A stretch of DNA of 64,000 nt from Skermanella mucosa. Its GTDB lineage: Bacteria; Pseudomonadota; Alphaproteobacteria; Azospirillales; Azospirillaceae. The DNA lies in assembly GCF_016765655.2 (NCBI RefSeq), contig NZ_CP086106.1, positions 3,158,501 to 3,222,500 on the forward strand. The letters are read 5' to 3'. A model generated the notes under the pieces. It did no database searches. It was not told the origin of the DNA and saw only the letters and a list, made by a program, of their open reading frames with translations. Within the stretch, counting starts at the first letter, position 1. Every line of letters starts with the position of its first letter. A program made the position numbers and the translations under genes. This document shows positions 12,489 through 62,482 of this stretch, in pieces.

Positions 12489-14414
12489 TCAACCGAAAAA
12501 GTAGAACCAGCCGACCAGCAGCACCACGCCGATCACCATCGCGAAAGCGTAGTGATAGACATAGCCGGACTGCAGGCGGGCGGCGCGGAGTGCGACGTCG
12601 CGGGTGGCGGCGGCGACGCCGTCGGGACCGACGCCGTCGATGATGGCCCCGTCACCGGACTTCCACAGGCCATAGCCCAGGTACTTGGCCGGCTGGACGA
12701 ACACCCTGTCGTACAGTTCGTCGAACATCCACTTGCGATAGACGAACTGATAGACCGCGCCGAGCTTGGACGAAACCAGGGACGGCAGGTGCGGCATGAA
12801 CATGTAGAAGAGGTACGCCAGCGCGATGCCGATCACGCCGGCCACGAACGGAGCCAGAGGCACCCAGCCGGGGACGTGGTGCGCCGCCTCGACGGTGTCG
12901 TTCTCGTGCAGGACGAAGATCGCCTTGCCCCAGAAATCCGCCCTGCCCTCGCCGACGAACCAGTTGTAGGCCACGACGCCGGAGAACAGCGCGCCGATCG
13001 CCAGGACGCCCAGGGGGATCGTCATGATGAGCGGGCTCTCGTGGACATGGGCCATGACCCGGTCGTTGGCCTGCGGCCGGCCGTGGAACGTCATGATGAT
13101 GAGGCGCCAGGAGTAGAACGCCGTCATGAGCGCCGCGGCGATGCCGAGCCAGAAGGCATAGGTGCCGACTCCGGAGTGGGCGGCATAGGCCGCCTCCAGG
13201 ATCATGTCCTTGGAGTAGTAGCCGGCGAAGAACGGGATGCCGGCGAGCGCCAGGCTGCCGATCCACATCATGGCGTAGGTCAGCGGGATCAGCCGCCAGA
13301 TGCCGCCCATCTTCCGCATATCCTGCTCGTCCGACATGGCATGGATCACCGAGCCGGCACCGAGGAACAGGAGGGCCTTGAAGAAGGCGTGGGTCATCAG
13401 GTGGAACATCGCGGCGCTGTAGGCAGAAACGCCGAGCGCGAAGAACATATAGCCGAGCTGGCTCATAGTCGAGTAGGCGATGACCCGCTTGATGTCGAAC
13501 TGGGTCAGGCCGATCGTCGCCGCGACGAAGGCGGTCGAGGCGCCGACGATGGCGATCACGTTGAGCGCGATCGGGGCGTACTCGAAAATCGGCGACAGGC
13601 GGGCGACCATGAAGACGCCGGCGGTCACCATGGTCGCGGCGTGGATCAGCGCCGACACCGGGGTCGGGCCCTCCATCGCGTCCGGAAGCCAGGTGTGCAG
13701 GCCGAGCTGCGCCGACTTGCCCATGGCGCCCATGAAGAGCAGCAGGCAGGCGACGGTCAGGGCGTCCAGGTCGAAGCCGAGGAAGTTGATGGAATGGCCG
13801 GCCATCTGCGGCGCGGCGGCGAACACGGTGTCGAAATGGACGGAGCCGAACAGGAAGAAGATCGCCATGATGCCCAGCGCGAAACCGAAGTCGCCGACCC
13901 GGTTCACGATGAACGCCTTCATGGACGCCGCGTTGGCGCTCGGCTTCTCGTACCAGAAATTGATCAGCAGGTACGAGGCCAGGCCGACGCCTTCCCAGCC
14001 GAAATACATCTGCACGAAATTATCGGCCGTCACCAGCATCAGCATGAAGAAGGTGAACAGGCTGAGATAGGCCATGAACCGCGGCTTGTGATGGTCGTGG
14101 CTCATGTACCCGATCGAGTAGACATGGACCATGGACGACACGACGTTGACCACGATCAGCATGACCGCGGTCAGCGTATCGAACTTGAGCGCCCACGAAA
14201 CCTCGAAGGTGCCGCTGTCGATCCAGGTCATCAGCTCGATGGTGCGAGCATTGCCGTTCAGCGCGACATCGACGAACAGCCAGATGGAGATGAGGGCCGA
14301 GACGCAGACCGCGCCCGCGGTGACGATCTGGGATCCCCGGTCGCCGATGAAGCGCCCGAAGAATCCCGCGATGAAGGCCGCCAGGAGCGGCAGGAAAATC
14401 GCTGCAACTTCCAT
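12489..14414 (-). CDS. nuoL: NADH-quinone oxidoreductase subunit L
   Basis: This is the most distal antiporter-like subunit of complex I. It has 641 residues, the usual NuoL length, including the C-terminal amphipathic lateral helix and a final membrane anchor. Motifs include [39 protein letters not shown] and [16 protein letters not shown]. It lies 10 bases after nuoK and 21 before nuoM. A very long open frame runs antisense to it (9714-14444, plus strand), a codon-usage shadow of this high-GC gene string. Confidence 0.97.
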
Positions 14415-49282: not shown

Positions 49283-51301
49283 TCAGGCGCAGCGGACATC
49301 CGCCAGGAAGCGGGCGACCTCGCCGCGCAGCCGCTCGGCCTCCTGGGCAAGGCTTCCCGCGGCGTTGAGCACCTGCCCCGCCGCCGCCCCGGTCTCGTTC
49401 GACGCCTGGGAGACGCCGGCGATGTTCCCCGACACCTCCTGTGTCCCGGCGGCCGCCTGCTGGACGTTTCTCGAGATGTCGCCGGTGGCCGCGTTCTGCT
49501 GCTCCACCGCGGCCGCCACGCTGGAGGAGATTTCGTTGATCTGGGCGATCGTCCGCGCGATCCCCTGTATGCCGCCCGCGGCGTTGCCGGTCGCCTGCTG
49601 GATCTCGATCACCTTGGCCTGGATCTCCCCGGTAGCGCGCTCGGTCTGGGACGCCAGCGCCTTGACCTCGGAGGCGACGACCGTGAAGCCCTTGCCGGCT
49701 TCCCCGGCACGCGCCGCCTCGATCGTGGCGTTCAGCGCCAGAAGGTTGGTCTGTCCGGCGATCGAGTTGATCAGTTCGACCACCTGGCCGATCTCGCGGG
49801 CGGCGTCGGTCAGGCCGCGCATGAGGGCATCGGTCCGCTCGGCGTCCTGGACCGCCTGGGCGGTGATCCTCAGCGAGCTGGACATCTGCCGGCTGATCTC
49901 CTGGATCGAAGCCGACAGCTCCTCCGCCGCGCCCGCGACGGTGTTGACGTTGGTGGTCGCCTGCTCCGAGGCCGCGGCGACGATGACCGCTTGGTGCGAA
50001 GCTGATTCCGCGGTCCTCGACATGACCCCGGCGCTGCGCTCCATCTCGGTCGCGGCGGACGACACGGCATCGACCACGCCCTTGACGTTCGCCTCGAAGC
50101 CGTCGGCCAGCCTCATCAGGTCGGCCTTGCGCTCCGCCTCGCTCCGGCGTTTGATCTCCTCCTGCTCCTCCTGCAGCCGCCTCACTTCCAGGGCATTGGC
50201 CTTGAAGGTCTCGACGGCCCGCGCCATCCCTCCGATCTCGTCGCCTCGACGGGTGAAGTCGACCCGGACCGAGAGATTGTCGCCGGCCAGTTCTCCCATG
50301 ATCGAGCTGAGCGACCGGATCGGCCGGGTGATACTGCGGGCGATCAGGAAGGCCATGACGATCCCGATCAGAAGCGCGCCCGCCGCCACGGCCAGCCCCA
50401 ACGCCCGCGCCTGCTCCGCAGCACCCGTCATGTCGGAGAAGGTCCGGTTCTGGTCTTCGGTGCTGGTTTGGCGCAGTTGCTCGACGGCGGCTCCCAGCGC
50501 CTCGGCGGCTCGGATCCGCTCGGCGCCAGCCGTCGAGAACTGGTCGGTCGCCGAGACGACGCCGTCGAGCGCCTTGCGGTACTCGTCCAGGATCGCCGGC
50601 AAGGCCGCGGCGAAACGCTGGAGCCGGCGGCTGTCGGCGGTCGAGGCCGCGAAGCCTGCCAGCGTCTCGGAGAACCGTTCGGCCTCCTTGATGGCGATCC
50701 CCACATCGGCAGGATTGCGCGACGAGATATAGCGCGTCGCCGCCTGGGCGCTCGCCTGCCCCGCCGCATCGAGCCGCACCGCCAGCTCCGTCACCTCCGA
50801 CTTTCCGTCCCGAACCGCCGTCCCGATGATCGCGGACGTGGTGGTGCCCAGGCTGGTGGAAGCCTTGACCAGGGAGGAGACGCCGATGCGCCGATCGGAC
50901 ACCGCGCCGACCACTCCCCTGGCCGCGGCGTCGTGGGCTTCCGCGGCCTTGGCGATGCGATCGACCAGGGCCGTATCCGCATCCAGCACCTCCGCGTCAA
51001 GCTTCGCGATGGCGGCGCCAAGCGCCTCAAGCGCTTGATTGGCGGCCGTCAGGTCGCCGTCGGTCTCCGTCAACGCATACTGCGCGAGGGCACCGCGGGC
51101 ATTCTCCATGTCGATGGACAAGGTCCCCGACACGGTGGCCGCATCGCTGACCGAGCGCAGCCTGCCGATACCGGCGATCGTTTCAGCCGCGTTCCGGTCG
51201 GCGACGAACGACAATGCTCCCAGCAGCACGAGCAGAAGGGCGAAGCCGCCCGAGATACGCAATGCTATCGGAATGTTAGAAAGTCTTGCCCAGGCTGTCA
51301 T
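49283..51301 (-). CDS. Methyl-accepting chemotaxis protein
   Basis: This membrane chemoreceptor has 672 residues. The first membrane segment is at about residues 14-33. A helical periplasmic ligand domain spans about 34-298, long enough for a helical-bundle type. The second membrane segment is at 300-322, followed by a HAMP domain (about 323-376). The signalling domain has its hairpin tip at about 515-535, containing [20 protein letters not shown]. No CheR-docking pentapeptide is present at the C-terminus (FLADVRCA). It lies 69 bases downstream of a lone TRAP-type binding protein gene on the same strand, which raises the possibility that the binding protein delivers its ligand. Confidence 0.93.
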
Positions 51302-51370: not shown

Positions 51371-52357
51371 TTACTGGACGTTCCTGATCCGCTCGACCTG
51401 AGCCGCGCCGAACTTCTTCTCGAGGTCCGGCATCGCGGGTGCGACGGCCTTGGCGAAGGCCGCACGGTCGATCTCGGTCACGACTTGCAGGCCCTGCTGC
51501 TGGAGTATCTTCACGCCGTTGGCCTGGGCGTCGGCCGCCGCCTTGCGCGACGCCTTGCCGCCGGCCTTCGCTGCTTCGACGAACGCGGTCTTGTCTTCGT
51601 CCGACATGTCCTCGAACGCGTCGATGCTCATCAGGAAGGCGGCGGGGTCATAGCTGTGGGCCGACAGGGTCAGGTGCTTCTGCACCTGGGCGAACTTGGC
51701 CGACAGGATCGTGGCGATCGGGTTCTCCTGCCCGTCGAACTGGCCGCTCTGCAGCGCGCTGTACAGTTCCGGGAACGCCAGCGGGGCCACGTCGGCGCCC
51801 AGCGCCTTGAAGCCAGCCACCATCACCTCGCTCTGCGGCACCCGGAGCTTCAGGCCCTTGACGTCCTCCGGAGCGGAGATCGGGCGCTTGGCGTTGGTGA
51901 TGTGGCGCATCCCGTTCTCGCCCCAGGCGAGGGCCACCATGTCCTGCGCGCGGAACTTCTCCAGGTATTCATGGCCGATCTCGCTGTCGAACACCCGGTG
52001 GGCATGGCCGGCGTCACGGAACAGGAACGGAATGCCGAAGACACCCACTTCGGGGACGAAGTTCAGCATGGGGGCGCCGGTCACGAAGGTCAGCTCGATG
52101 GTGCCGAGTTGGACGGCCTTGATCGCCTCGACCTCCCCGCCCAGGGCGGCGTTGGGATACAGCTCGATCTTGTACCGGCCGGAGGTGCGCTTGGCGACCT
52201 CCTCCGCGAAGGCGGCCGCCCCGGCGCCGAGCTGGGAGTCGGAACCCAGGATATGCCCGAGCTTGAGCGTGCGGGCCTGCTGCGCCTGGGCACTGCCGAC
52301 ACCAAGGAATAGTAGAGCGCTCGCGGCCATGGCGGCCACGCGAATATTCATGAACAT
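51371..52357 (-). CDS. TRAP transporter substrate-binding protein DctP family
   Basis: This periplasmic solute receptor of the DctP/TeaA type usually binds organic acids. It has 328 residues with a signal peptide of about 25 residues ending GSAQA. Family motifs include LKLGHILGSDSQLGAGA at the mature N-terminus, ELYPNAALGGEVEAIKAVQL and the carboxylate-binding region KGLKLRVPQSEVM, with the conserved Arg in LKLRVP. FDGQENPIATI is also typical. No DctQ or DctM membrane genes lie nearby. A second in-frame ATG is 6 bases downstream; the ribosome-like AGGGA favours the first. Confidence 0.9.
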   Translation of the reverse strand: MFMNIRVAAMAASALLFLGVGSAQAQQARTLKLGHILGSDSQLGAGAAAFAEEVAKRTSGRYKIELYPNAALGGEVEAIKAVQLGTIELTFVTGAPMLNFVPEVGVFGIPFLFRDAGHAHRVFDSEIGHEYLEKFRAQDMVALAWGENGMRHITNAKRPISAPEDVKGLKLRVPQSEVMVAGFKALGADVAPLAFPELYSALQSGQFDGQENPIATILSAKFAQVQKHLTLSAHSYDPAAFLMSIDAFEDMSDEDKTAFVEAAKAGGKASRKAAADAQANGVKILQQQGLQVVTEIDRAAFAKAVAPAMPDLEKKFGAAQVERIRNVQ

Positions 52358-52477: not shown

Positions 52478-53182
52478 TCATGATTCGAGTTTCACGCCGA
52501 TGCGCCCTGCGGCAGCGTTGATGTGCCGGGCCATCGCCGCAGATGCCCCGGCCCCGTCGCGACCGTTCAGGGCGGTCAGGATCGCTTCGTGCTCGCTGAC
52601 GGTCTCCCAAATCCGGTCATGATGGATGAAAGGCAGGCGCTGGATCTCGTCCAACACGCCGTTCACCGTGCGGAACAATTCCACGAACATGCGATTGCCG
52701 CTGCACTCCACGATGGTTCGATGGAAAAAGCTGTCGCACTCCGCCAACGCGATCAGGTCGCCGGATTCAACGGCGCGGCGCATTCCCTCGACCGAGCGCC
52801 CGATCTCCTCCAGTGGCCCGGCGGCTGATTTCACGGCGGCCAAGCCGGCCGCGCGCGGCTCCAGCATCAATCGGGTCTCGTAGACCTCGTACGGTGAGTA
52901 ACGATCGGCGAACCGCCATTTGGGTTCCGGAGCCCTGTCCGCGGGGTTGCCGCCGGGCTCTACGACGAAGACGCCCCGCCCGACTTCCACCCGGACAAGC
53001 CCCAGGGTCTCCAGGACCGACAGGGCCTCGCGCAACGACGCCCGGCTGATGCCGAGCTGCTCGGCAAGCTCGCGCTGGGCCGGCAGCCGCTCCCCCGGCG
53101 CCAGCGGTCCCTCCAGGATCATCGCCTGGATTCGCTGAACCGCCGATTGGGGCACCAGCATCCTGCCGCCGACCTTGTTCAT
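52478..53182 (-). CDS. FadR/GntR family transcriptional regulator
   Basis: This dimeric regulator has 234 residues from the ATG at 53182, which has GGAG 9 bases upstream. Another ATG lies 18 bases earlier (53200), without such a site. The winged helix covers about residues 7-75, with PLAPGERLPAQRELAEQLGI, SRASLREALSVLETLGLV and the wing VEVGRGVFVVEPG. The C-terminal FCD ligand domain, with metal-type histidines (FFHRTIVECSGN and SEHEAILTAL), covers about 90-230. It is divergent from an ABC/ureide gene cluster, and the perfect inverted repeat at 53244-53267 is its probable operator. The effector is likely a catabolite of that cluster. Confidence 0.92.
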   Translation of the reverse strand: MNKVGGRMLVPQSAVQRIQAMILEGPLAPGERLPAQRELAEQLGISRASLREALSVLETLGLVRVEVGRGVFVVEPGGNPADRAPEPKWRFADRYSPYEVYETRLMLEPRAAGLAAVKSAAGPLEEIGRSVEGMRRAVESGDLIALAECDSFFHRTIVECSGNRMFVELFRTVNGVLDEIQRLPFIHHDRIWETVSEHEAILTALNGRDGAGASAAMARHINAAAGRIGVKLES

Positions 53183-53243
53183 TCCCAGGCTCCCGCGCAT
53201 CCATTTGTCTGCTTGACCCTACCCCGAAAAACAGGTCCAATCC

Positions 53244-53267
53244 ACTGGTCTGGCCGGTCAGACCAGT
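53244..53267. promoter_or_regulatory. Inverted-repeat operator in the divergent promoter region
   Basis: ACTGGTCTG (53244-53252) and CAGACCAGT (53259-53267) are perfect inverted repeats around a 6-base spacer. It contains TGGTCTGGCC and GGTCAGACCA, close to the TGGT-N3-ACCA form recognised by FadR-subfamily regulators. It sits 61 bases before the regulator start and 70 before the binding-protein gene, so it can control both directions. Confidence 0.75.
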
Positions 53268-53337
53268 TGCGGTGAACGACGACGGGCACGCCGGCCCCGG
53301 GGATAGCCAACGTCAAAATTCGATGTGAGGAGACGAC

Positions 53338-54141
53338 ATGCGCAGGACTTTCCTGAAGACGGCCCTGGTGGCCGTCATCGCCACCGCCGCGACCACCATG
53401 ACCGGCCCCGCCAATGCTGCGGACCTGACGGTCGGCGCCAATATCGGCAACGTCCCCTGGGAGTTCCAGGACGCCACCGGCAAGAATGTCGGGTTCGAGA
53501 TCGACCTGATCGACGAGATCGCCAAGCGCATGGGCAAGTCGGTCGAGATCGTCAACATCCCGTTCAACGGCCTGTTCTCCGCCGTGCAGTCCGCACGGAT
53601 CGACATGGCGATCTCGTCCATCACCATCACCGAGAAGCGGCTGGAATCGGTCAGCTTCGCCCAGCCCTACTATGACAGCGACCAGTCGCTGACGGTGCTT
53701 GCCAAGAGCGGCATCGCCAAGGTGGAGGACCTGAAGGGCAAGGCGGTCGGCGTCGATACCGGCTCCACCGGCGACATGTGGGCGACCCAGAACCAGGCCA
53801 AGTACGGCTTCGGGGACATCCGCCGGTTCGAGGGGCTCCAACCCGCCATGCTCGATCTGGCGGCCGGCCGGCTCGACGGCTATGTCAGCGACATCCCTGC
53901 CCTGCTCTACTTCACCAAGGATAAGCCGCAGTTCAAGGTGGCCCAGCGCATCCAGACGGGCGAACGCTATTCGATCATGTTCGCCAAGGACAGCCCGCTG
54001 GCGGCCCAGGTGAACGAGCAGATCACCGCCATGAAGAAGGACGGCACGGTCGCCGCCCTGCACGAGAAGTGGTTCGGCGCCAAGCCGGAAGCGGGCACCA
54101 GCACCGCCGAGGTCATGGACATGCCCAAGCCCAAGTCCTGA
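53338..54141 (+). CDS. Amino-acid-type ABC transporter substrate-binding protein
   Basis: This periplasmic binding protein of the polar amino acid (family 3) type has 267 residues. The signal peptide covers about residues 1-27 (MRRTFLKTALVAV to ANA). The mature domain has PWEFQDATGKNVGFEIDLID, MAISSITITEKRLESVSFAQ, GVDTGSTGDMWA and LAAGRLDGYVSDIPALLYF. A strong GAGGAG ribosome site precedes it. It is the first gene of the operon that continues with a permease, an AllA-like protein, a PLP enzyme and a dihydropyrimidinase. A ureide or cyclic-amide ligand is therefore inferred, not shown. Confidence 0.9.
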   Translation: MRRTFLKTALVAVIATAATTMTGPANAADLTVGANIGNVPWEFQDATGKNVGFEIDLIDEIAKRMGKSVEIVNIPFNGLFSAVQSARIDMAISSITITEKRLESVSFAQPYYDSDQSLTVLAKSGIAKVEDLKGKAVGVDTGSTGDMWATQNQAKYGFGDIRRFEGLQPAMLDLAAGRLDGYVSDIPALLYFTKDKPQFKVAQRIQTGERYSIMFAKDSPLAAQVNEQITAMKKDGTVAALHEKWFGAKPEAGTSTAEVMDMPKPKS

Positions 54142-54158
54142 ACCCCGACGCCTGACGC

Positions 54159-54833
54159 ATGGACATCGTCGATACTTTCTTCAACTGGAGCGTGCTGCAA
54201 AGCTCGCTCCCCCTCCTGTTGCTCGGGCTGGGCACCACGCTCAGCCTGGGCGTTACCAGCATCCTGATCGGTCTGGTCGCCGGCCTGTTCATGGCCCTCC
54301 TCCGGATGTACGGTCCGAAGCCGCTGGCGGTGCTGGCGATCGCCTATATCGACCTGTTCCGCGCGATCCCGATCCTCGTCCTGCTGGTGTTGATCTACTA
54401 CGCCCTGCCTTTCGTCGGGCTGCGCCTGTCGCCCTTCGCGGCGGCCACGTCGGCGCTGTCGCTGGTCAGTTGCGCCTACGCGGCGGAGATCTTCCGCGCC
54501 GGCATCCAGGCGGTCCCGCGCGGACAATTCGAGGCGAGCCGTGCGCTCGGCCTGAAGTTCGGGGGCATGATGTGGCACGTGGTGCTGCCCCAGGCCTTCC
54601 GCCTGGTCATCCCGCCGATCACCAACAACTGCATCAACGTGATGAAGGACACGGCCCTGGCCTCGGTCGTCGCCATGCCGGACCTGCTGAAGCAGGCGAC
54701 CCAGGCGCAGGCCCTGGCCGCCAACCCGACGCCGCTGATCGGCGCCGCCGTCATCTATGTCCTGCTGCTGCTCCCGCTGGTAAGGATCGTCGGCACGCTG
54801 GAGAAGCGCTTCGCGATCGGGCGAAGCCGGTGA
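54159..54833 (+). CDS. Amino-acid-type ABC transporter permease
   Basis: This inner-membrane subunit has 224 residues and about five membrane helices. It is of the HisMQ type: the EAA loop appears as EASRALGLKFGGMMWHVVLP, and IPILVLLVLIYYALPFVGL is typical of amino-acid permeases. Only one permease gene is present, so it would form a homodimer. No ATPase gene follows in the cluster, so the ATPase must be borrowed from elsewhere. Its stop codon overlaps the GTG start of the next gene (GTGA). The ribosome site is weak. Confidence 0.9.
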   Translation: MDIVDTFFNWSVLQSSLPLLLLGLGTTLSLGVTSILIGLVAGLFMALLRMYGPKPLAVLAIAYIDLFRAIPILVLLVLIYYALPFVGLRLSPFAAATSALSLVSCAYAAEIFRAGIQAVPRGQFEASRALGLKFGGMMWHVVLPQAFRLVIPPITNNCINVMKDTALASVVAMPDLLKQATQAQALAANPTPLIGAAVIYVLLLLPLVRIVGTLEKRFAIGRSR

Positions 54834-55345
54834 CCGGCATCCCGATCTTTCCCCGACCGCTGGACCCGGCCGGCTTCGCCCCGTTCGGCGACGTGGTCCA
54901 GGCCGGCCCGGGATCGGTCACGCGGGTCAACGACGGGCGCGCCGACCGGTTCGACGGCATCGGCCGGCTGGAGCGGGTCATGGGCGAAACGACACCGACC
55001 GTCGCCGTCTACCGCATCGACGCCTCGAACCTGCCCCACCGGATCCCCCGGCTCGAACGCCATCCCTTGAGCAGCCAGCTGTTCGTGCCGATGGACGCGG
55101 CACGCTACCTCGTGGTCGCGGTGCCGTCCGATGAGGATGGCATGCCGGTCCCGGAGGGAGCCGCGGCCTTCCTCGCCGCTGCGAACCAGGCGATCAACTA
55201 CCGTCCCGGCGTCTGGCACTGCCCGCTCGTGGCGCTCGACCGGCCGGCCGACTTCATCATGGTCATGGGCCAGGCCTTCGACGCCTCCGCCGATTGTGAA
55301 TTCTTCGACCTGCCCGAGCCGTTCACGGTCGGGCCGGCCCCCTGA
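54830..55345 (+). CDS. allA: Ureidoglycolate lyase (AllA) family protein
   Basis: By family this enzyme splits ureidoglycolate to glyoxylate and urea at the end of allantoin breakdown. It has 171 residues from a GTG at 54830 that overlaps the permease stop. Family features are DPAGFAPFGDVVQAG near the N-terminus, a VNDGRADRFDG segment, RLERHPLSSQLFVPM and INYRPGVWHCPL, which carry the His and Glu residues of the cupin-like active site. Its place between a transporter and a dihydropyrimidinase suggests a related ureido acid as substrate. No allantoinase-allantoate amidohydrolase genes of the classic pathway are seen here. Confidence 0.78.
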   Translation: MTGIPIFPRPLDPAGFAPFGDVVQAGPGSVTRVNDGRADRFDGIGRLERVMGETTPTVAVYRIDASNLPHRIPRLERHPLSSQLFVPMDAARYLVVAVPSDEDGMPVPEGAAAFLAAANQAINYRPGVWHCPLVALDRPADFIMVMGQAFDASADCEFFDLPEPFTVGPAP

Positions 55346-55360
55346 CAGGAGTGTAGAGGC

Positions 55361-56590
55361 ATGCTGCCCGCCCTCGATCTCGATTTCGTCCGTTCCCAGT
55401 TCCCGGCGCTGGCCGGCGACTGGGTCTTCTTCGACAATGCCGGCGGCTCGCAGACGCTGCGTGGCGTCGCCGAACGGATTTCCGACTATCTGCTGACCAG
55501 CAACGTGCAGCTCGGCGCCAGCTACGGCGTGTCGCAGCGGTCCGGCGCACGGGTCCGGGACGCCCACGCCGTGATCGCCGAACTGATCGGCGCCTCGCGC
55601 CCTGAAGAGGTGGTGATGGGGCCGTCCACGACGGCGCTGATGTACACCCTCGCGGCGGCCCTGGCCGAGGGGATCGAACCCGGCGACGAGATCGTCGTCA
55701 CCGACACCGACCACGAGGCCAATATCGGCCCCTGGCTGAAGCTGAAGGACCGAGGCGCCGTCATCAAGGTCTGGGCGGTCGATCCGGAGACGCTGGAACT
55801 GGACCTCGCCGACCTGGACGCGCTGATGACCCCACGCACCCGGCTGGTCTGCTTCACCCACGCTTCCAACATCCTCGGCACCATCAACCCGGTCGCCGAG
55901 ATCACCCGCTTCGTCCACGAGCGCGGCGCGCGCGTCGTGGTGGACGCGGTGGCGCTCGCCCCCCACAGGGCCGTCGAGGTGACGGCCTGGGACGTCGATT
56001 TCTACGTCTTCAGCTTCTACAAGGTGTACGGCCCGCATCATGCGGTGCTGTACGGCAAGTACGACCAGCTGCTGGCGCTGCCCAGCCTCAACCATTTCTT
56101 CATCGGCCGGGAGGTCGTGCCCTACAAGCTCCAGCAGGGCAACGTGAATTACGAGCTGTCGGTCGGCTGCACCGCCATCGCCGACTATCTGGCGGAGCTG
56201 GGCGGCCGCACCGGCGCCCGGACCGACCGGCGCGGCCAGATCCTGGCCGCCTTCGACGCGATCGCCGCGCAGGAGGAGGCCCTGGCCGAACGCCTGCTCT
56301 CCTATCTGCGCGGCCGCGACGACATCGGCATCATCGGCCACGCCGCCGCCGACCGGGCCAAGCGGGTCCCGACAATCAGCTTCGTCGCCCGCGGGCGGCA
56401 GTCGGACGAGATCGTCACCGGCGTGGACCGCAGCAACATCGGCATCCGGTTCGGCGACTTCTATGCCCGGCGGCTGATCGACCGGCTGGGCCTGACACCA
56501 ACCAAGGGCGTGGTCCGGGTCTCGATGGTCCATTACAACACCGTGGACGAGGTCGACCGGCTGGTCGAAGCTCTCGACGGAATCCTGTAA
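55361..56590 (+). CDS. Cysteine-desulfurase-like class V aminotransferase
   Basis: This PLP-dependent fold-type I enzyme has 409 residues. It belongs to the cysteine-desulfurase-like subgroup, whose reactions include desulfurases, C-S lyases and other class V enzymes. The N-terminus has FPALAGDWVFFDNAGGSQTL. The PLP region is GPSTTALMYTLAAAL and DTDHEANIGPW, and the PLP lysine is K221 in SFYKVYGPHHAVLYG. The usual flexible Cys-containing loop of IscS/SufS is not obvious. The GAGTG-type site AGGAG precedes the ATG. Position between AllA and dihydropyrimidinase genes is unusual and points to a catabolic role and not Fe-S assembly. Confidence 0.85.
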   Translation: MLPALDLDFVRSQFPALAGDWVFFDNAGGSQTLRGVAERISDYLLTSNVQLGASYGVSQRSGARVRDAHAVIAELIGASRPEEVVMGPSTTALMYTLAAALAEGIEPGDEIVVTDTDHEANIGPWLKLKDRGAVIKVWAVDPETLELDLADLDALMTPRTRLVCFTHASNILGTINPVAEITRFVHERGARVVVDAVALAPHRAVEVTAWDVDFYVFSFYKVYGPHHAVLYGKYDQLLALPSLNHFFIGREVVPYKLQQGNVNYELSVGCTAIADYLAELGGRTGARTDRRGQILAAFDAIAAQEEALAERLLSYLRGRDDIGIIGHAAADRAKRVPTISFVARGRQSDEIVTGVDRSNIGIRFGDFYARRLIDRLGLTPTKGVVRVSMVHYNTVDEVDRLVEALDGIL

Positions 56591-56607
56591 GCGGAAAGGG
56601 AAACGCC

Positions 56608-58041
56608 ATGGACAGCTTCGACCTGGTGATTCGCGGGGGCACGGTGGTCACCGCTTCCGAGACCTCGCGCTGCGACGTGGGCATCCGCGACGGCCGGATC
56701 GCGGCGCTGGCCGACCGCCTGCCCGCCGGCAGCCGGGAAATCGACGCCGGGGGTCGCCTCGTGATGCCGGGCGGGATCGACAGCCATGTGCATATCGACC
56801 AGCCCTCGGGCGACGAGACGGTGATGGCGGACGACTTCCTCAGCGGCACACGCTCCGCCGCGGCAGGCGGCAACACGACGGTCATCCCGTTTGCGCTCCA
56901 GCACAAGGGCCAGAGCCTGCGGGCCGCCGTGTCCGACTATCACGCCCGCGCCGACGGCAAGTGCCTGATCGACTACAGCTTCCACCTCATCGTCTCCGAT
57001 CCCAACGAGCAGACGCTGGGCCAGGACCTGCCGGCCCTGGTCAACGACGGCTATACCTCGTTCAAGGTCTTCATGACCTATGACGACCTGAAGCTGAACG
57101 ACCGCGAGATGCTGGAGGTGTTCGACGTCGCCCGGCGCGAGGGTGCCCTGGTGATGGTCCATGCCGAGAACTACGACGCCATCCGCTACATGACCGAACG
57201 GCTGGAGCGCGCCGGCCACACCGAGCCCTATTTCCACGGCACCTCCCGCCCAGCCCCGGTCGAGCGAGAGGCGACCCACCGGGCCATCACCTTCGCCGAG
57301 CTGGTGGACGTGCCGATCATGATCGTCCATGTCTCGTCCGGCGACGCGGTCGAGCAGATCCGCTGGGCCCAGTCGCGCGGCCTGAAGATCTACGGGGAGA
57401 CCTGCCCCCAGTACCTCGTGCTGACCGCCGAGGACCTGCGCGGCCTCAACATGGAGGGGGCGAAATATGTCTGCAGCCCGCCGCCACGCGATCCGGAAAG
57501 CCAGGACGCCTGCTGGCAGGGGCTGGTCAACGGCACCTTCGCCACATACTCCTCCGACCACTGCCCGTTCCGCTACGACAGCCCGGCCGGCAAGAAGCGC
57601 AAGGGCGAGCGGACGGCCTTCCGCTGGGTGCCCAACGGCATCCCCGGCGTCGAGACCCGGCTGCCCATCCTGTTCTCCGAAGGGGTGGTGAAGGGAAAGA
57701 TCGATCTCCAGCAATTCGTGGCCCTGACCTCCACCAACCACGCCCGGATCTACGGGCTGGCGGGACGCAAGGGGACGATCTCGGTCGGAGCGGACGCCGA
57801 CATCGCGATCTGGGATCCCGAGCTGCGCCGCCCGATCCGCCAGGAGAACCTGCACCACGGGGCCGACTACACGCCCTACGAAGGAATGGAGATCACCGGC
57901 TGGCCGACCACCGTGATCGTGCGCGGCGGCATCGTGGTGGAGGACGGCACCGTGGTCGGCCAACCCGGCCACGGCGCCTTCCTGAAGCGCGACCTGTCGC
58001 CCTTCGCCAAGCCCCGCGGCAGGACCTGGCTACCCGCCTGA
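56608..58041 (+). CDS. hydA: Dihydropyrimidinase / D-hydantoinase
   Basis: This zinc-dependent cyclic amidohydrolase opens dihydropyrimidine or 5-substituted hydantoin rings. It has 477 residues, typical of the family. Metal ligands are visible: H60 and H62 (IDSHVHIDQP), the carbamylated lysine K153 (SFKVFMTYDD), H185 (MVHAEN), H241 (MIVHVSSGDA) and D317 (YSSDHCPF). The GETCPQYLVLT segment is also typical. It ends the operon started by the ABC binding protein. No carbamoylase (beta-ureidopropionase) gene is next to it; the AllA-like protein might take that kind of role, which is inference. Confidence 0.93.
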   Translation: MDSFDLVIRGGTVVTASETSRCDVGIRDGRIAALADRLPAGSREIDAGGRLVMPGGIDSHVHIDQPSGDETVMADDFLSGTRSAAAGGNTTVIPFALQHKGQSLRAAVSDYHARADGKCLIDYSFHLIVSDPNEQTLGQDLPALVNDGYTSFKVFMTYDDLKLNDREMLEVFDVARREGALVMVHAENYDAIRYMTERLERAGHTEPYFHGTSRPAPVEREATHRAITFAELVDVPIMIVHVSSGDAVEQIRWAQSRGLKIYGETCPQYLVLTAEDLRGLNMEGAKYVCSPPPRDPESQDACWQGLVNGTFATYSSDHCPFRYDSPAGKKRKGERTAFRWVPNGIPGVETRLPILFSEGVVKGKIDLQQFVALTSTNHARIYGLAGRKGTISVGADADIAIWDPELRRPIRQENLHHGADYTPYEGMEITGWPTTVIVRGGIVVEDGTVVGQPGHGAFLKRDLSPFAKPRGRTWLPA

Positions 58042-58060
58042 TCCCGGGCGGGAACAGCGG

Positions 58061-58978
58061 TCAGGGAACAACTCCCTCCGGCAGACCCCGGCAGTGCTCC
58101 GCGATGGCGCCGGCCGTGGTCAGCCAGATACGGTCGCGGTGAGCCTTGATGTGGGACAGCGCCCGGCGGAGGTGGCGCAACCGATGGGGTTGGCCGACCA
58201 GATAGGCATGCAGGGCGATGCCCATAACCAGCGGTCCCTGTTCCGCCTGCTCCAGCATCTCGTCGAACTGGTCCACGATCATGTCGGCGAACTCCGGCGC
58301 TCCCATGCGGCGCCCGACGATCGCCGGGATGTCGTTCAGCTCTTGGGGATAGGGAACCGCCAGCAGCCGGCCGGCGCGGGTATTCATCCAGACCGGCTGG
58401 TCGTCCATGCACCAGTCCAGCACATAGCGGTACCCCTGCTCCGCCAGCAGGTCGGGCGTGACGCGGCTCTCGGAAATCCAGGGACCGAGCCAGCCCGCAG
58501 GCTCCCTGCCCTCGTGCCGGGCGATGGCTTGCGTGCTGTCGGCGATCAGGGCGGCCTCGTCGGCTTCGTCCAGGATGCCCTGCCGCTCCGCGTTGGTCCA
58601 GCCATGGCCGACGATCTCGTCGCCGCGCTCGCGGAAGGCAGCGACCAGTTCCGGGCAGTAGCCGTAGAGCGCGCCGTTGACCAGGACCGAGGCCGGCCAG
58701 CCCAGCTGGTCGAACAGATCCAGCATCCGCCACGCGCCGACCCGGTTGCCGTAGTCGCGCCAGGCATAGTTCAGCACGTCGGGTTGCGGACCGCCCGGGC
58801 ACAGCTCGGCCCCCATCCCCTCCCCGAACGCGAAATGTTCCAGGTTGAGCCCGACATAAACCGCCAGGCGCCGCCCTCCCGGCCAATCGTAGGGCTTCCT
58901 TCCCCGTATCGGCGAGTAGGCGTAGCGGCCATGGCCCGCGGGCGGCTTCCGCTCGGCGGCTCCCCTGTCGCCGGTCAA
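58061..58978 (-). CDS. Polysaccharide deacetylase / PuuE-like family protein
   Basis: This NodB-fold hydrolase is of the group that includes PuuE-type allantoinases and peptidoglycan or chitin deacetylases. It has 305 residues if it starts at the TTG at 58978, which overlaps the stop of a tiny upstream gene and has GAGG 8 bases before it; no in-frame ATG or GTG is well placed. The family begins at GRYAYSPIRGRKPYDWPGG. Other motifs are VNGALYGYCPELVAAFRERG, EIVGHGWTN, GWLGPWISESRVTPDLLAEQ and WCMDDQPVWM. The PuuE likeness fits the neighbouring ureide genes, with which it is convergent (19 bases from the hydA stop). Confidence 0.83.
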   Translation of the reverse strand: MTGDRGAAERKPPAGHGRYAYSPIRGRKPYDWPGGRRLAVYVGLNLEHFAFGEGMGAELCPGGPQPDVLNYAWRDYGNRVGAWRMLDLFDQLGWPASVLVNGALYGYCPELVAAFRERGDEIVGHGWTNAERQGILDEADEAALIADSTQAIARHEGREPAGWLGPWISESRVTPDLLAEQGYRYVLDWCMDDQPVWMNTRAGRLLAVPYPQELNDIPAIVGRRMGAPEFADMIVDQFDEMLEQAEQGPLVMGIALHAYLVGQPHRLRHLRRALSHIKAHRDRIWLTTAGAIAEHCRGLPEGVVP

Positions 58979-59157
58979 GACCGCAGCCTCGCGATGCAGT
59001 CGGTTCCGATCTGGCCGCCGCCAATCAACGACGCCGCCCCGGTGCAGGTGCGCGCCGGCAGGTGAGCCCACGCGAAGTAGCTCGCGTGCCCGTACGGCGA
59101 GAACGGTTTGCCGATCTCCCGGATGTCGTGATGCTTCAGATGCGGGCTTCCGTCCAT
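58975..59157 (-). CDS. Tiny gene coupled to the deacetylase gene
   Basis: It encodes 60 residues from the ATG at 59157, which has a strong GAGGAGG ribosome site 5 bases upstream. The N-terminal part HHDIREIGKPFSPYGHASYF looks faintly like the start of RidA-type proteins, but the remaining 30 residues (including SLIGGGQIGTDC) do not continue that fold clearly, so it may be a degraded or novel small protein. Its TGA overlaps the TTG start of the deacetylase, indicating translational coupling. Function is unknown. Confidence 0.5.
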   Translation of the reverse strand: MDGSPHLKHHDIREIGKPFSPYGHASYFAWAHLPARTCTGAASLIGGGQIGTDCIARLRS

Positions 59158-59893: not shown

Positions 59894-62482
59894 ATGAAGC
59901 TCAAGACCACCATCGCCGCTGGATATTTCACGGTCATCGGCCTTGTGGCGGTGGTCGGTGTGGTGGGATTGCTCGGCCTTTACCGCTATGCCGAGTCGGT
60001 CGAGCACGGGACATCCGCGACGCGGCTTTCCCTCGCCCTTGGGGAGGTCAGGGCGCTGGAATGGAGCGCGCTGCGGGGCGATCTCTCGGCATCGGACGAG
60101 GCGAAGCGGCGGCTGGTGTCGATCATCGAGCAGTTCGCCCAGGGCGGCATGTTGGCCGAGCAGGCCTCGGCCGACCGGTACGCGCAGGCGTTCCGCGCCT
60201 TCGTCGATGTCGAGGAGAAGCTGCTCCAGGGCGACGCGGCGATCGGGCGGTCCGTCCAGCAGCTCGGGATGCTGTCGGACCAGATCGTCACCGCCCAGGT
60301 CAAGCTCGCCCGAGCGGCCGGGAACGACCTGGACGAGGCGGAGACGGCGGCCCGGCAGGCGAGCACGATGGCCGACCTCGTCCTGACGATCCGCGACGGC
60401 GTGATCGAGGCCCAACTGGCCGAGATGGCTTTCCTCAACCATCCCGATAGCAGCGAGATCACCCCGGCGCTGGAAGCGCTCAGCCTCGCCGCCGAACGGA
60501 CGTCCGCCATGCCGCCGGAAGATGCCGGCCCCGCCTTCTCGATCATCGAGGCCTACGCGATCTCGATCGGCGAGACCTCGGCGGCCTATGCCGGTTACGA
60601 GAGCTACCGGGAGGTGATCTTCCGCCTGCTGAAGGAGATGGACGACATCCATGCCGGCCTGCCCGCCGATACGGAACCCTCGATCCGGGCGGAAGCGGGC
60701 GACCTGACCGCCTGGGCTTGGCGCGCCCGTGCCACCGGGGTAATCGAAGACGGCGCGGCGGTGCCCGTGATCACCCACCCCGAACTCGACGAAATGAAGA
60801 CCCTGGCGCTTGAGGTGATCGACCTGACCCGCCAGATGGCGGTCGCCCGCGCCGAACTGCTTCAGCTTTCCGCGATCGACGAGGCCCAGTCGCGCGGCAT
60901 CGCCTCGACCATGGAATCGATCAAGGAGCGCTACGTCGGCATCCGGACCGCGGCCGAAACCCGGGCGATCCAGGCCCGGTCCGCATTCGCCAACGCCATG
61001 ACCGCCGCCGACCGCGGCCGGCAGATCCGGACCGCGGCGCTTCAGATAGCCCTCGCCCTGTCCGACCTTTCTTCCGGCAAGCGGGAGGTGCTGCGGGAAG
61101 AGATCGCGGGAACGCTCGCGCGGGTCGTAGGACATCTCGACGAGATCGCCCGGCTGACCGGCGACAGCGACCTGATCTCCAGGATGCGCAGCCTGCTGCC
61201 CCCCCTCGAACAGAGCTTCGTGTCCCAGATCGAACTTCAGGCAAGCGCCGTGCGCTTGGCGCGCGACATGAACGCCGCCGCCGTGGAGGCATCGAGCCAA
61301 TCGCGAGCCCTGTCCGAGACCGGATTGGCGGCGGCCGAGGAAGGCAAGCGGAATTCGGTCGCGATCATCATGACGACCTTGGCGATCGCCATCGCCGCCG
61401 CCCTCGCCTTCGCCCTGATCCTCGGCCGCTACGTCTCGGGCGGCATCTCGCGCATGAGCGGGGCGATGGATGCGATCGCCCACGGAATGCTGGAGACCGA
61501 GATCCCCAACCAGGGTGAAAAGGGCGAGCTGGGGCAGATGGCCAACTCGCTGGTCGCCTTCAAGGACAATGCGCGCCGGAGGATCCAGGCCGAAGCCAGT
61601 GCCGAAAGTGCCCGCATGCAGGCCGACTCCGAACGGCGCCAAGTGCTCGGCGACCTGGCCCAGACCTGCGAGAGCCGGCTGCTGCCCTTGGCCCAGCAGG
61701 TATCCACCGCGTCGCGTCAGCAGCTCGACGACGCCCGCCAGTTGCTCGAGGTCGCCGAACAGGCGATGAAGCGGTCCGAGACCGTGGCCGACGAAGCCGG
61801 CATGACGGGGCGCAACCTGGGGGCGGTCGCGTCGGCGACGGAGGAGATGGCCGCGTCCATCGCGGGCATCGCCGAGAACATGCTGTCCACCGCCGGCCTC
61901 GCGCGCCGCAGCGTCACCGAGGCGGACCGGGTCCGCGCCGACCTGGAGAGCCTGGTGAGGGTCGCCCAGGGGGTCGGTGACGTGGTGCTGCTGATCCGCG
62001 ACATTTCCGAGCAGACCAACCTGCTGGCTCTCAACGCCACGATCGAGGCGGCGCGGGCCGGGGAGGCCGGCAAGGGCTTCGCCGTCGTCGCCAACGAGGT
62101 GAAGAACCTGGCCTCCCAGGCGGCCCGCGCGACAGAGGAAATCTCCGCCCGGATCGACGGCATCCGCCATGAAACCCTGAACGCGACCGAAGCGATCCGG
62201 GGCATCTCCTCGATCATCGAGCAGATGGATGTCGCGACCGGGTCGGTCGCCGGTGCCGTCGAGCAGCAGCGCAGCGCCACGCGCGAGATCGCCCAGACCA
62301 CCCAGAACGTCTCGGGCAGCGTCGACCGAATCGGCAGCGACATCGCGATGGTCAGCGACCATGCCCGCGAGACGGAGACGGTCGCCCGCGAACTGCAGCG
62401 GGCTGCCGAACGTCTGGGCGGCGAGGCGACGGAAATGGAACGTACCGTTAACGATTTCATCGCCTCTATCAGGTCAATCTGA
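59894..62482 (+). CDS. Methyl-accepting chemotaxis protein (large periplasmic domain)
   Basis: This membrane chemoreceptor has 862 residues. The first membrane segment is at about 8-29. A very long, mostly helical periplasmic region of about 455 residues follows, to the second membrane segment at about 488-512. A HAMP domain (RMSGAMDAIAHGMLETEI onward) leads to the signalling domain, with its tip near 708-728 ([20 protein letters not shown]). No CheR pentapeptide is seen at the C-terminus. The ligand domain is about double the usual size, suggesting tandem helical bundles. A palindrome ATATCCGGATAT lies upstream at 59752-59763. Confidence 0.93.
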   Translation: MKLKTTIAAGYFTVIGLVAVVGVVGLLGLYRYAESVEHGTSATRLSLALGEVRALEWSALRGDLSASDEAKRRLVSIIEQFAQGGMLAEQASADRYAQAFRAFVDVEEKLLQGDAAIGRSVQQLGMLSDQIVTAQVKLARAAGNDLDEAETAARQASTMADLVLTIRDGVIEAQLAEMAFLNHPDSSEITPALEALSLAAERTSAMPPEDAGPAFSIIEAYAISIGETSAAYAGYESYREVIFRLLKEMDDIHAGLPADTEPSIRAEAGDLTAWAWRARATGVIEDGAAVPVITHPELDEMKTLALEVIDLTRQMAVARAELLQLSAIDEAQSRGIASTMESIKERYVGIRTAAETRAIQARSAFANAMTAADRGRQIRTAALQIALALSDLSSGKREVLREEIAGTLARVVGHLDEIARLTGDSDLISRMRSLLPPLEQSFVSQIELQASAVRLARDMNAAAVEASSQSRALSETGLAAAEEGKRNSVAIIMTTLAIAIAAALAFALILGRYVSGGISRMSGAMDAIAHGMLETEIPNQGEKGELGQMANSLVAFKDNARRRIQAEASAESARMQADSERRQVLGDLAQTCESRLLPLAQQVSTASRQQLDDARQLLEVAEQAMKRSETVADEAGMTGRNLGAVASATEEMAASIAGIAENMLSTAGLARRSVTEADRVRADLESLVRVAQGVGDVVLLIRDISEQTNLLALNATIEAARAGEAGKGFAVVANEVKNLASQAARATEEISARIDGIRHETLNATEAIRGISSIIEQMDVATGSVAGAVEQQRSATREIAQTTQNVSGSVDRIGSDIAMVSDHARETETVARELQRAAERLGGEATEMERTVNDFIASIRSI

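Follow-up and report, generated by a model that had tools for sequence, protein, structure and literature searches.

To our knowledge, fungal secondary metabolism is the only known source of Fgm3-type lyases, which are pyridoxal phosphate (PLP) enzymes cleaving the Cβ-Cγ bond of an amino acid. According to the accessible parts of the sources, Fgm3 releases L-alanine from 4(R)-hydroxy-L-arginine and Fgm2 acts as a glycocyamidine hydrolase (PMC10967133); in a second source the substrate of Fgm3 (compound 1) is defined as the (S)-γ epimer and the reaction is called a retro-aldol (PMC10367076), so that the epimer is given differently in the two. For Fgm2 the portions available give 56% identity to a polysaccharide deacetylase, Fgm9 is likened there to a short-chain alcohol dehydrogenase (PMC6389888), and the related enzyme UstD is reported to make γ-hydroxy amino acids (PMC11976203). 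Here we analyse a locus of Skermanella mucosa in which the gene for a class V PLP enzyme stands downstream of genes for an amino-acid importer and directly before a hydantoinase gene. The locus lies in a stretch of 64,000 nucleotides (contig NZ_CP086106.1, positions 3,158,501 to 3,222,500), hereafter termed the window. Annotated copies name the products of the two enzyme genes "cysteine desulfurase-like protein" and "dihydropyrimidinase". Our analysis suggests that they are two steps of one amino-acid degradation pathway which comes with an importer of its own and, usually, a dedicated regulator and operator.

A full-text literature search, with most subscription papers outside its coverage, gave no description of this operon as a unit. 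The nearest source is PMC6015842, which in the parts available lists several genes of the Polaromonas plasmid pE10SP1 singly, without joining them; the accessible parts of PMC5381064 and PMC4103551 do not describe the operon.

Conservation of the operon

For the comparison of gene neighbourhoods, 62 loci were used, namely 44 from a protein search, those of a plasmid search, a Polaromonas locus and the window, minus two poor matches (the partial or distant L077 and L079, dropped before counting); L076 entered the count with its known position. The plasmid search gave 22 records matching the PLP enzyme at E ≤ 1e-100, 18 of which were examined (all but H3, H7, H13, and H14). In 33 of the 62 loci, the PLP gene is directly preceded by genes for a solute-binding protein (SBP) and a permease, where an ATPase or AllA gene may intervene. 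The gene order, for which conservation across genomes had been asked, is thus not specific to this strain. These 33 operons include the window and its near relatives L036 and L038, and the Polaromonas member (L098) was chosen for its AllA and PuuE-like matches and a paper and is therefore not an unbiased one. An ATPase gene is present in 27 of the 33; it is missing from its place in the three counted Skermanella loci, in a betaproteobacterial metagenome-assembled genome (L054), in Mesorhizobium L082 and in Deinococcus L085. A divergent gene for a regulator with an FCD domain is found in 26 operons, a gene of the RpiR type in four, and a hydantoinase gene no more than 5.5 kb downstream of the PLP gene in 29.

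The operon occurs in Alpha-, Beta-, and Gammaproteobacteria and in Deinococcus, and because it recurs across phyla, the gene order is not due to chance. The genera represented are Skermanella, Azospirillum, Microvirga, Rhizobium and allied genera, Mesorhizobium, Aureimonas, Fulvimarina, Paracoccus, Rhodobacter, Alloyangia, Granulosicoccus, Pseudomonas, members of the Betaproteobacteria, and Deinococcus. The other 29 loci have none of the operon partner genes nearby within the distance and identity limits of the scan, by which, for example, ATPases below 55% identity were not counted; L043 has a hydantoinase of 30% identity 6-7 kb upstream.

Filamentous cyanobacteria (L039, L041, L043, L046, L047, L049, L053, and others) possess PLP relatives of 56-61% identity without the operon genes, and these carry FGM3-like motifs.

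The PLP enzyme

The PLP enzyme passes the cut-off of the "cysteine desulfurase-like" family TIGR01976 (393.6 versus 352.35 bits), fails that of the SufS profile TIGR01979 with less than half the required score (214.6 versus 475.1 bits), and also remains far under the CsdA cut-off. In SufS-type desulfurases, the cysteine of the R.GHHCA loop is the catalytic residue. In the window enzyme this loop reads IGIRFGDFYARR and contains no cysteine; among the aligned rows listed, 8KG1 alone has one. On these two grounds, identification as a cysteine desulfurase was rejected, and with it the cysteine-desulfurase-like enzyme of the sequence-only reading. The thiohydantoin substrate offered as an example there is likewise without sequence evidence, because the SufS score is low and the catalytic cysteine absent. 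The same reading had expected an amino acid or a sulfur-bearing fragment as product: the sulfur chemistry finds no support, and an amino acid is probably released, namely L-alanine by homology with Fgm3. Its premise that the classic allantoin pathways do not use enzymes of this class was too strong, since PucG, the (S)-ureidoglycine-glyoxylate aminotransferase, belongs to class V.

The best relatives in the PDB are FGM3 (E 9e-92), then UstD (2.5e-57) and then the desulfurase 8kg1 (1.4e-51), with alignment identities to the window enzyme of 46, 36, and 35%, respectively. Four motifs, a set chosen in this analysis without a published definition, are common to the window enzyme and FGM3: QxG(A/G)(S/T)Y (QLGASY), DHExNI.PW (DHESNIDPW in FGM3), YKxYGPH (YKVYGPH), and (I/A)GIRxGxF (AGIRWGHF in FGM3). 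In most of these motifs, UstD and 8kg1 diverge. The trees place FGM3 and UstD together with the bacterial family, and 8kg1 lies far outside; the alignment and the first tree omit L076, L077, and L079, and the second tree omits 15 near-duplicate rows. From a model comparison, Tyr225 was proposed as the general base of Fgm3 (PMC10367076, accessible part). Its mapping is ambiguous, the candidates in the window enzyme being Y220, invariant in 29 aligned enzymes, and Y223, two positions after the PLP lysine. Sequence comparison thus points to kinship with Fgm3 and not to a desulfurase, and we propose that the enzyme is a Cβ-Cγ lyase.

Regulator and operator

In 25 of the 33 operons, the 300 bases that precede the binding-protein match contain a GGTCWGACC core or a GGTCTG...CAGACC palindrome; the expectation from mononucleotide shuffles is 0.09. 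The motif is paired with the regulator gene: it occurs in 25 of the 26 operons with an FCD regulator and in none of the seven without, and the one exception (L087, regulator present) has a looser palindrome. Since the operons are related to each other, these are not 33 independent observations. The site of the window, ACTGGTCTGGCCGGTCAGACCAGT, has a chance expectation in the window of 0.00 and is found once per genome in each of five Skermanella genomes. A second operator elsewhere was considered and dismissed, as each of the five genomes has the single site and the compact motif gave none in G000. In the window, the PLP gene and hydA are consecutive behind this one operator, and they presumably form one transcription unit under a dedicated regulator; the FCD regulator would control the operon from the palindrome.

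The binding protein

The binding protein is closest to the glutamine-binding protein 4f3p (E 1.7e-43). Three features of its pocket, GAN(I/V)GNVPWEF, the arginine of SSITIT..R, and the aspartate of SD(I/V)PA, are kept in the SBPs of all 33 operons; the arginine and the aspartate are ligands of the α-carboxylate and the α-amino group, respectively. Because these motifs are present throughout, the 33 proteins likely share one α-amino-acid ligand. At the first-strand pocket position, the binding protein has asparagine, whereas four of the five aligned PDB proteins (out of 11 matched) have aspartate or glutamate and the fifth has serine. The side-chain end of the ligand would accordingly be predicted to be neutral.

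Hydantoinase and accessory proteins

The hydantoinase keeps the HxH, Lys, His, His, Asp, Tyr, Ser, and Asn motifs, whose residues have metal-ligand and substrate roles, so that both sets are intact; unlike 1nfg, it has a loop of the DQPSGD..MADDF type. An ergothioneine hydantoinase of the ErtD type was rejected (237 bits, cut-off 650). The window genome contains a second dihydropyrimidinase, C1:802621, which scores higher on TIGR02033 (614.6 versus 546.9 bits), and the operon enzyme is therefore not the sole candidate for pyrimidine use. In the Polaromonas operon and L054, the hydantoinase at the same place is more distant (38-39%). L044 has a PuuE-like gene and no hydantoinase match within its 21 kb, and in Skermanella aerolata L038 a PuuE-like gene is present and no hydantoinase gene adjoins, one of 67% being located elsewhere in the genome. 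Because the PuuE-like gene occurs in these two without an adjacent hydantoinase, the pattern suggests that the two amidohydrolases can substitute for each other.

The AllA and PuuE-like proteins are accessories of the operon. AllA is present in seven of the 33 operons (Skermanella, Azospirillum, Microvirga, Polaromonas, and L054), and the PuuE-like gene was counted in four, a fifth in L051 having been seen and dropped from the scripted count. In the window genome, the AllA-like protein is the sole PF04115 match found; its best score on the curated NCBIfam ureidoglycolate lyase models is below the cut-off (114 versus 160 bits). The PuuE-like protein is far under the PuuE profile TIGR03212 (126.5 versus a cut-off of 424.6 bits), and its kin in the PDB are 3s6o and 3cl6 (PuuE). 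The view of the cluster as a catabolic operon for ureides and cyclic amides is supported in part: the operon is conserved and has a hydantoinase and a dedicated regulator and operator.

Proposed pathway and alternative explanations

In the explanation that we prefer, and to which we assign about an even chance, a non-protein α-amino acid is imported, an Fgm3-type reaction splits it into L-alanine and a cyclic urea or guanidine, or a precursor of this ring, and the ring is then opened. One such amino acid would be imported by the binding protein, the permease, and an ATPase whose gene presumably lies elsewhere in the genome, and its Cβ-Cγ bond would be cleaved by the class V PLP enzyme. The fragment released beside L-alanine would be, or would close to, a five-membered cyclic urea or guanidine of the hydantoin or 2-iminohydantoin type. 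The hydantoinase would then open this ring, giving a ureido or guanidino acid. In operons that contain them, the PuuE-like hydrolase may carry out this opening or help in it, and AllA may cleave a product of the ureidoglycolate type to glyoxylate and urea. The order of these steps and the class of the substrate are proposed on the same footing.

Several observations weigh against this scheme. The window operon is without an ABC ATPase, so its importer set of SBP, permease, and ATPase is incomplete; the closest ATPase match elsewhere in the window genome is 62% identical to the ATPase of the Azospirillum operon. The hydantoinase gene comes after two other genes in L051, and four of the 33 operons (L038, L044, L082, and L095) have none downstream, L095 having one upstream. 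From 385 evenly sampled genomes of the class, 20 PLP matches (E ≤ 1e-100) were obtained, located in 19 genomes; three of them stand beside a hydantoinase match (the window genome, G001, and G299), and among the 17 of the 20 regions that were examined L130 (G299) alone is the operon. On the trees, the operon label changes six times (first) and four times (second), compared to 20.7 (first) and about 21 changes for shuffled labels. From the few linkages in the class sample and the label changes it follows that linkage to the operon is a property of part of the family, clustered but not one clean clade. As to the enzyme itself, FGM3 and UstD lie on long branches and their exact placement is uncertain according to the tree warnings, UstD catalyzes a different, decarboxylative aldol reaction, and Y223, if it were the base, is replaced by phenylalanine in L044, L051, L054, L072, L086, and L098. 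Finally, the asparagine in the SBP pocket in place of aspartate or glutamate speaks against a cationic guanidino ligand.

The other 15 PLP enzymes of the class sample (L132-L146) form a separate clade of 43-51% identity in which the scan did not find QxG(A/G)(S/T)Y; some have ABC transporter genes as neighbours, including one or two for permeases. In L131, genes related to the neighbours of the PLP gene of TMPK1 (Rhodospirillales) were found, which we take to be those for an SDR, an FAA hydrolase, and an aminotransferase. L131 and L071 presumably represent a second conserved PLP context, in which genes of these three kinds follow the PLP gene on its strand.

The pocket argument bears most directly on 4-hydroxy-L-arginine, a special case of the preferred explanation that would make the operon a catabolic version of the fungal Fgm3/Fgm2 route and that we regard as doubtful. 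The PLP enzyme would here form L-alanine and guanidinoacetaldehyde, reportedly the other product of Fgm3; oxidation would give glycocyamidine (2-iminohydantoin), and the hydantoinase or the PuuE-like enzyme would convert this to guanidinoacetate. Fgm3 is the closest characterized PLP relative found, two of the three fungal activities (Fgm3 and Fgm2, the latter in name only) have close-set counterparts in the window, and the importer is of the amino-acid type. The asparagine found where four of the five aligned PDB proteins have aspartate or glutamate argues against this substrate, as does the lack of a dehydrogenase for the step from the aldehyde to glycocyamidine both in the window operon and in the gene set that is constant in the annotated operons. 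Literature listings on hydroxyarginine and PLP, on glycocyamidine hydrolysis, and on hydroxyarginine in legumes gave no bacterial pathway. A dehydrogenase would not be needed if the operon salvaged oxidised histidine, an idea for which we see a small chance and which comes from chemical reasoning alone. Hydrated 2-oxohistidine, the ring form of γ-oxocitrulline, would be a γ-hydroxy amino acid, and Fgm3-type cleavage would yield L-alanine and hydantoin directly, which the hydantoinase would convert to N-carbamoylglycine; the 5-hydroxylated form would lead via 5-hydroxyhydantoin to ureidoglycolate, from which AllA would produce glyoxylate and urea. One explanation would then cover the PLP enzyme and the hydantoinase as well as the neutral SBP pocket and the AllA of some operons, and, if true, this salvage would serve to remove histidine oxidised by light or metals. 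No pathway of 2-oxohistidine catabolism was found in the literature search, including PMC5270733 in its accessible part.

The remaining alternatives fare as follows. Ordinary pyrimidine or allantoin catabolism, in which the hydantoinase would be a dihydropyrimidinase or allantoinase, AllA and PuuE would act on ureidoglycolate and allantoin, and the PLP enzyme would be a PucG-like aminotransferase, agrees with the ureide type of all three hydrolase and lyase families and with the lack of another PF04115 match in the genome. However, AllA and the PuuE-like gene are confined to a minority of the operons, whereas the amino-acid importer and the PLP enzyme are constant; the separate hydantoinase is the better match to TIGR02033, the PuuE-like protein falls far short of its profile, and neither a pyrimidine dehydrogenase nor a carbamoylase is among the typed window genes. 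We consider this explanation improbable. Even less can be said for C-S chemistry, in which a PLP desulfurase or C-S lyase would act with the hydantoinase on thiohydantoin-like amino acids. The more distant PLP relatives (8kg1, SufS) are desulfurases, and class V includes C-S lyases without a catalytic cysteine; the cysteine-free loop, the low SufS score, and the much closer relationship to Fgm3 point the other way, and no sulfur gene is present in nine annotated plasmid operons, cysD lying about 5 kb from the operon of Mesorhizobium L082. This explanation appears very unlikely. A linkage to sulfur was also rejected on gene neighbourhoods, the sole hints being this cysD and a 4Fe-4S protein about 3 kb past the hydantoinase gene in L037. 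Most improbable of all is a PLP enzyme working in the forming direction, as in the aldol reaction of UstD, so that the operon would scavenge or modify an aldehyde and not degrade an amino acid: UstD is in the same branch and its products are γ-hydroxy amino acids, but the constant partner is an amino-acid importer, mostly with a dedicated regulator, which fits the degradation of an imported amino acid.

Should the substrate of the preferred pathway be named, the known catabolic pathways would gain one for an amino acid that is damaged or foreign to proteins, and the occurrence of Fgm3-type PLP Cβ-Cγ lyases in bacterial catabolism would be shown. For biocatalysis, the operon would in addition be a source of bacterial enzymes related to UstD and Fgm3.

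Gene layout of the window locus

The features of the locus are listed in Table 1; the genes were typed with Pfam and NCBIfam profiles, and the seven that the sequence-only reading had named were all found in the order given there.

Table 1 Features of the operon region in the window
Feature	Position	Strand	Evidence and remarks
GntR+FCD regulator	52478-53200	-	Pfam FCD 100 bits, GntR 70.7 bits; divergent from operon
Palindromic operator ACTGGTCTGGCCGGTCAGACCAGT (proposed)	53244-53267		between regulator gene and binding-protein gene
Family 3 (amino-acid type) solute-binding protein, SBP_bac_3	53338-54141	+	PF00497 129 bits; pocket motifs
Amino-acid ABC (ATP-binding cassette) permease, HEQRo family	54159-54833	+	Pfam/NCBIfam
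AllA-family (ureidoglycolate lyase-like) protein	54830-55345	+	PF04115 137 bits, cut-off 23
Class V PLP enzyme, Fgm3/UstD branch of TIGR01976	55361-56590	+	TIGR01976 393.6 bits; PDB match, motifs, trees
Hydantoinase/dihydropyrimidinase, PRK13404 subfamily	56608-58041	+	790 bits, cut-off 647; motifs
PuuE-like polysaccharide-deacetylase-family amidohydrolase	58061-58978	-, convergent	PF01522 32.2 bits; TIGR03212 below cut-off
RidA-family gene remnant, 60 codons, gene middle absent	58975-59157	-	matches both ends of intact RidA open reading frame of L036

The genes on the plus strand are tightly spaced: the GTG start of the AllA gene overlaps the stop of the permease gene (GTGA at 54830-54833), and gaps of 15 and 17 bases separate the AllA gene from the PLP gene and the PLP gene from hydA, respectively. 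The span given to the cluster earlier holds for the named genes, but its right end, 59157, is the ATG of the RidA remnant of 60 amino acids. This remnant has no Pfam match of its own and is located directly upstream of the PuuE-like gene; in S. stibiiresistens L036, an intact RidA open reading frame (133 amino acids, PF01042 92.9 bits) is found at the same place (13628-14029). Judged by the ATG opposite in L036, the start of the PuuE-like gene is most likely the TTG at 58976-58978.

Next to the regulator gene lies a DctP gene (binding protein of the tripartite ATP-independent periplasmic (TRAP) type; 51371-52357, minus strand). A TRAP transporter as part of the operon was rejected: S. aerolata L038 has a close copy about 4 kb from the regulator gene, and L093, L095, and L097 gave matches of just 28-34%. 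Two long open reading frames flanking the region (49283-51301, minus strand, and 59894-62482, plus strand) presumably encode methyl-accepting chemotaxis proteins, and in the Aureimonas copy (L086) an annotated chemotaxis protein follows hydA. The scanned region contains no Rfam element at the gathering score, and scans for sigma-70 promoters and terminators gave nothing exceeding shuffles.

Comparison with known systems

Among described enzymes, SufS and CsdA resemble the window enzyme in the class V family and the PLP lysine and differ from it in the catalytic cysteine and in their profile scores, for which the window enzyme stays far under both cut-offs. UstD belongs to the same class V branch and shares the alanine-enamine chemistry, but with 36% identity it is without QxGASY, DHExNI.PW, and IGIRxGxF, and it acts in the C-C forming direction. 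Hydantoin-utilisation clusters composed of hydA, carbamoylase, and hydantoin racemase, as in Sulfitobacter L099, have in common with the window hydA and, in L099, a PuuE-like deacetylase 67% identical to that of the window; no such PLP enzyme is annotated in the 19 kb of L099, and the carbamoylase is absent from the window operon. Four more plasmid regions with PuuE-like proteins (L100-L103) were varied in content, L103 having hydA.

On the Polaromonas plasmid pE10SP1, genes for an SBP, a permease, an ATPase, the PLP enzyme, hydA, AllA, and a PuuE-like protein occur together as in the window, but an RpiR-type regulator gene stands beside hydA, no FCD regulator was found, and the hydantoinase is more distant (38%). 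The plasmid has in addition an Asp/Glu/hydantoin racemase further on and, adjoining the operon (L098, 11067-12209), a ring-opening amidohydrolase of the cyanuric-acid-hydrolase type (NF052395, 544.9 bits).

The closest likeness is to Fgm3, with Fgm2, of the fusaoctaxin cluster of Fusarium, in which the PLP enzyme has the same active-site motifs at 46% identity. In both systems it occurs with a polysaccharide-deacetylase-like amidohydrolase, Fgm2 being compared with the PuuE-like neighbour by its description in the accessible part of the source. The Fgm3/Fgm2 system is fungal and biosynthetic, and the hydroxyamino acid is made by a P450, whereas in the window operon the amino acid would be supplied by an importer and the usual partner of the PLP enzyme is a hydantoinase.

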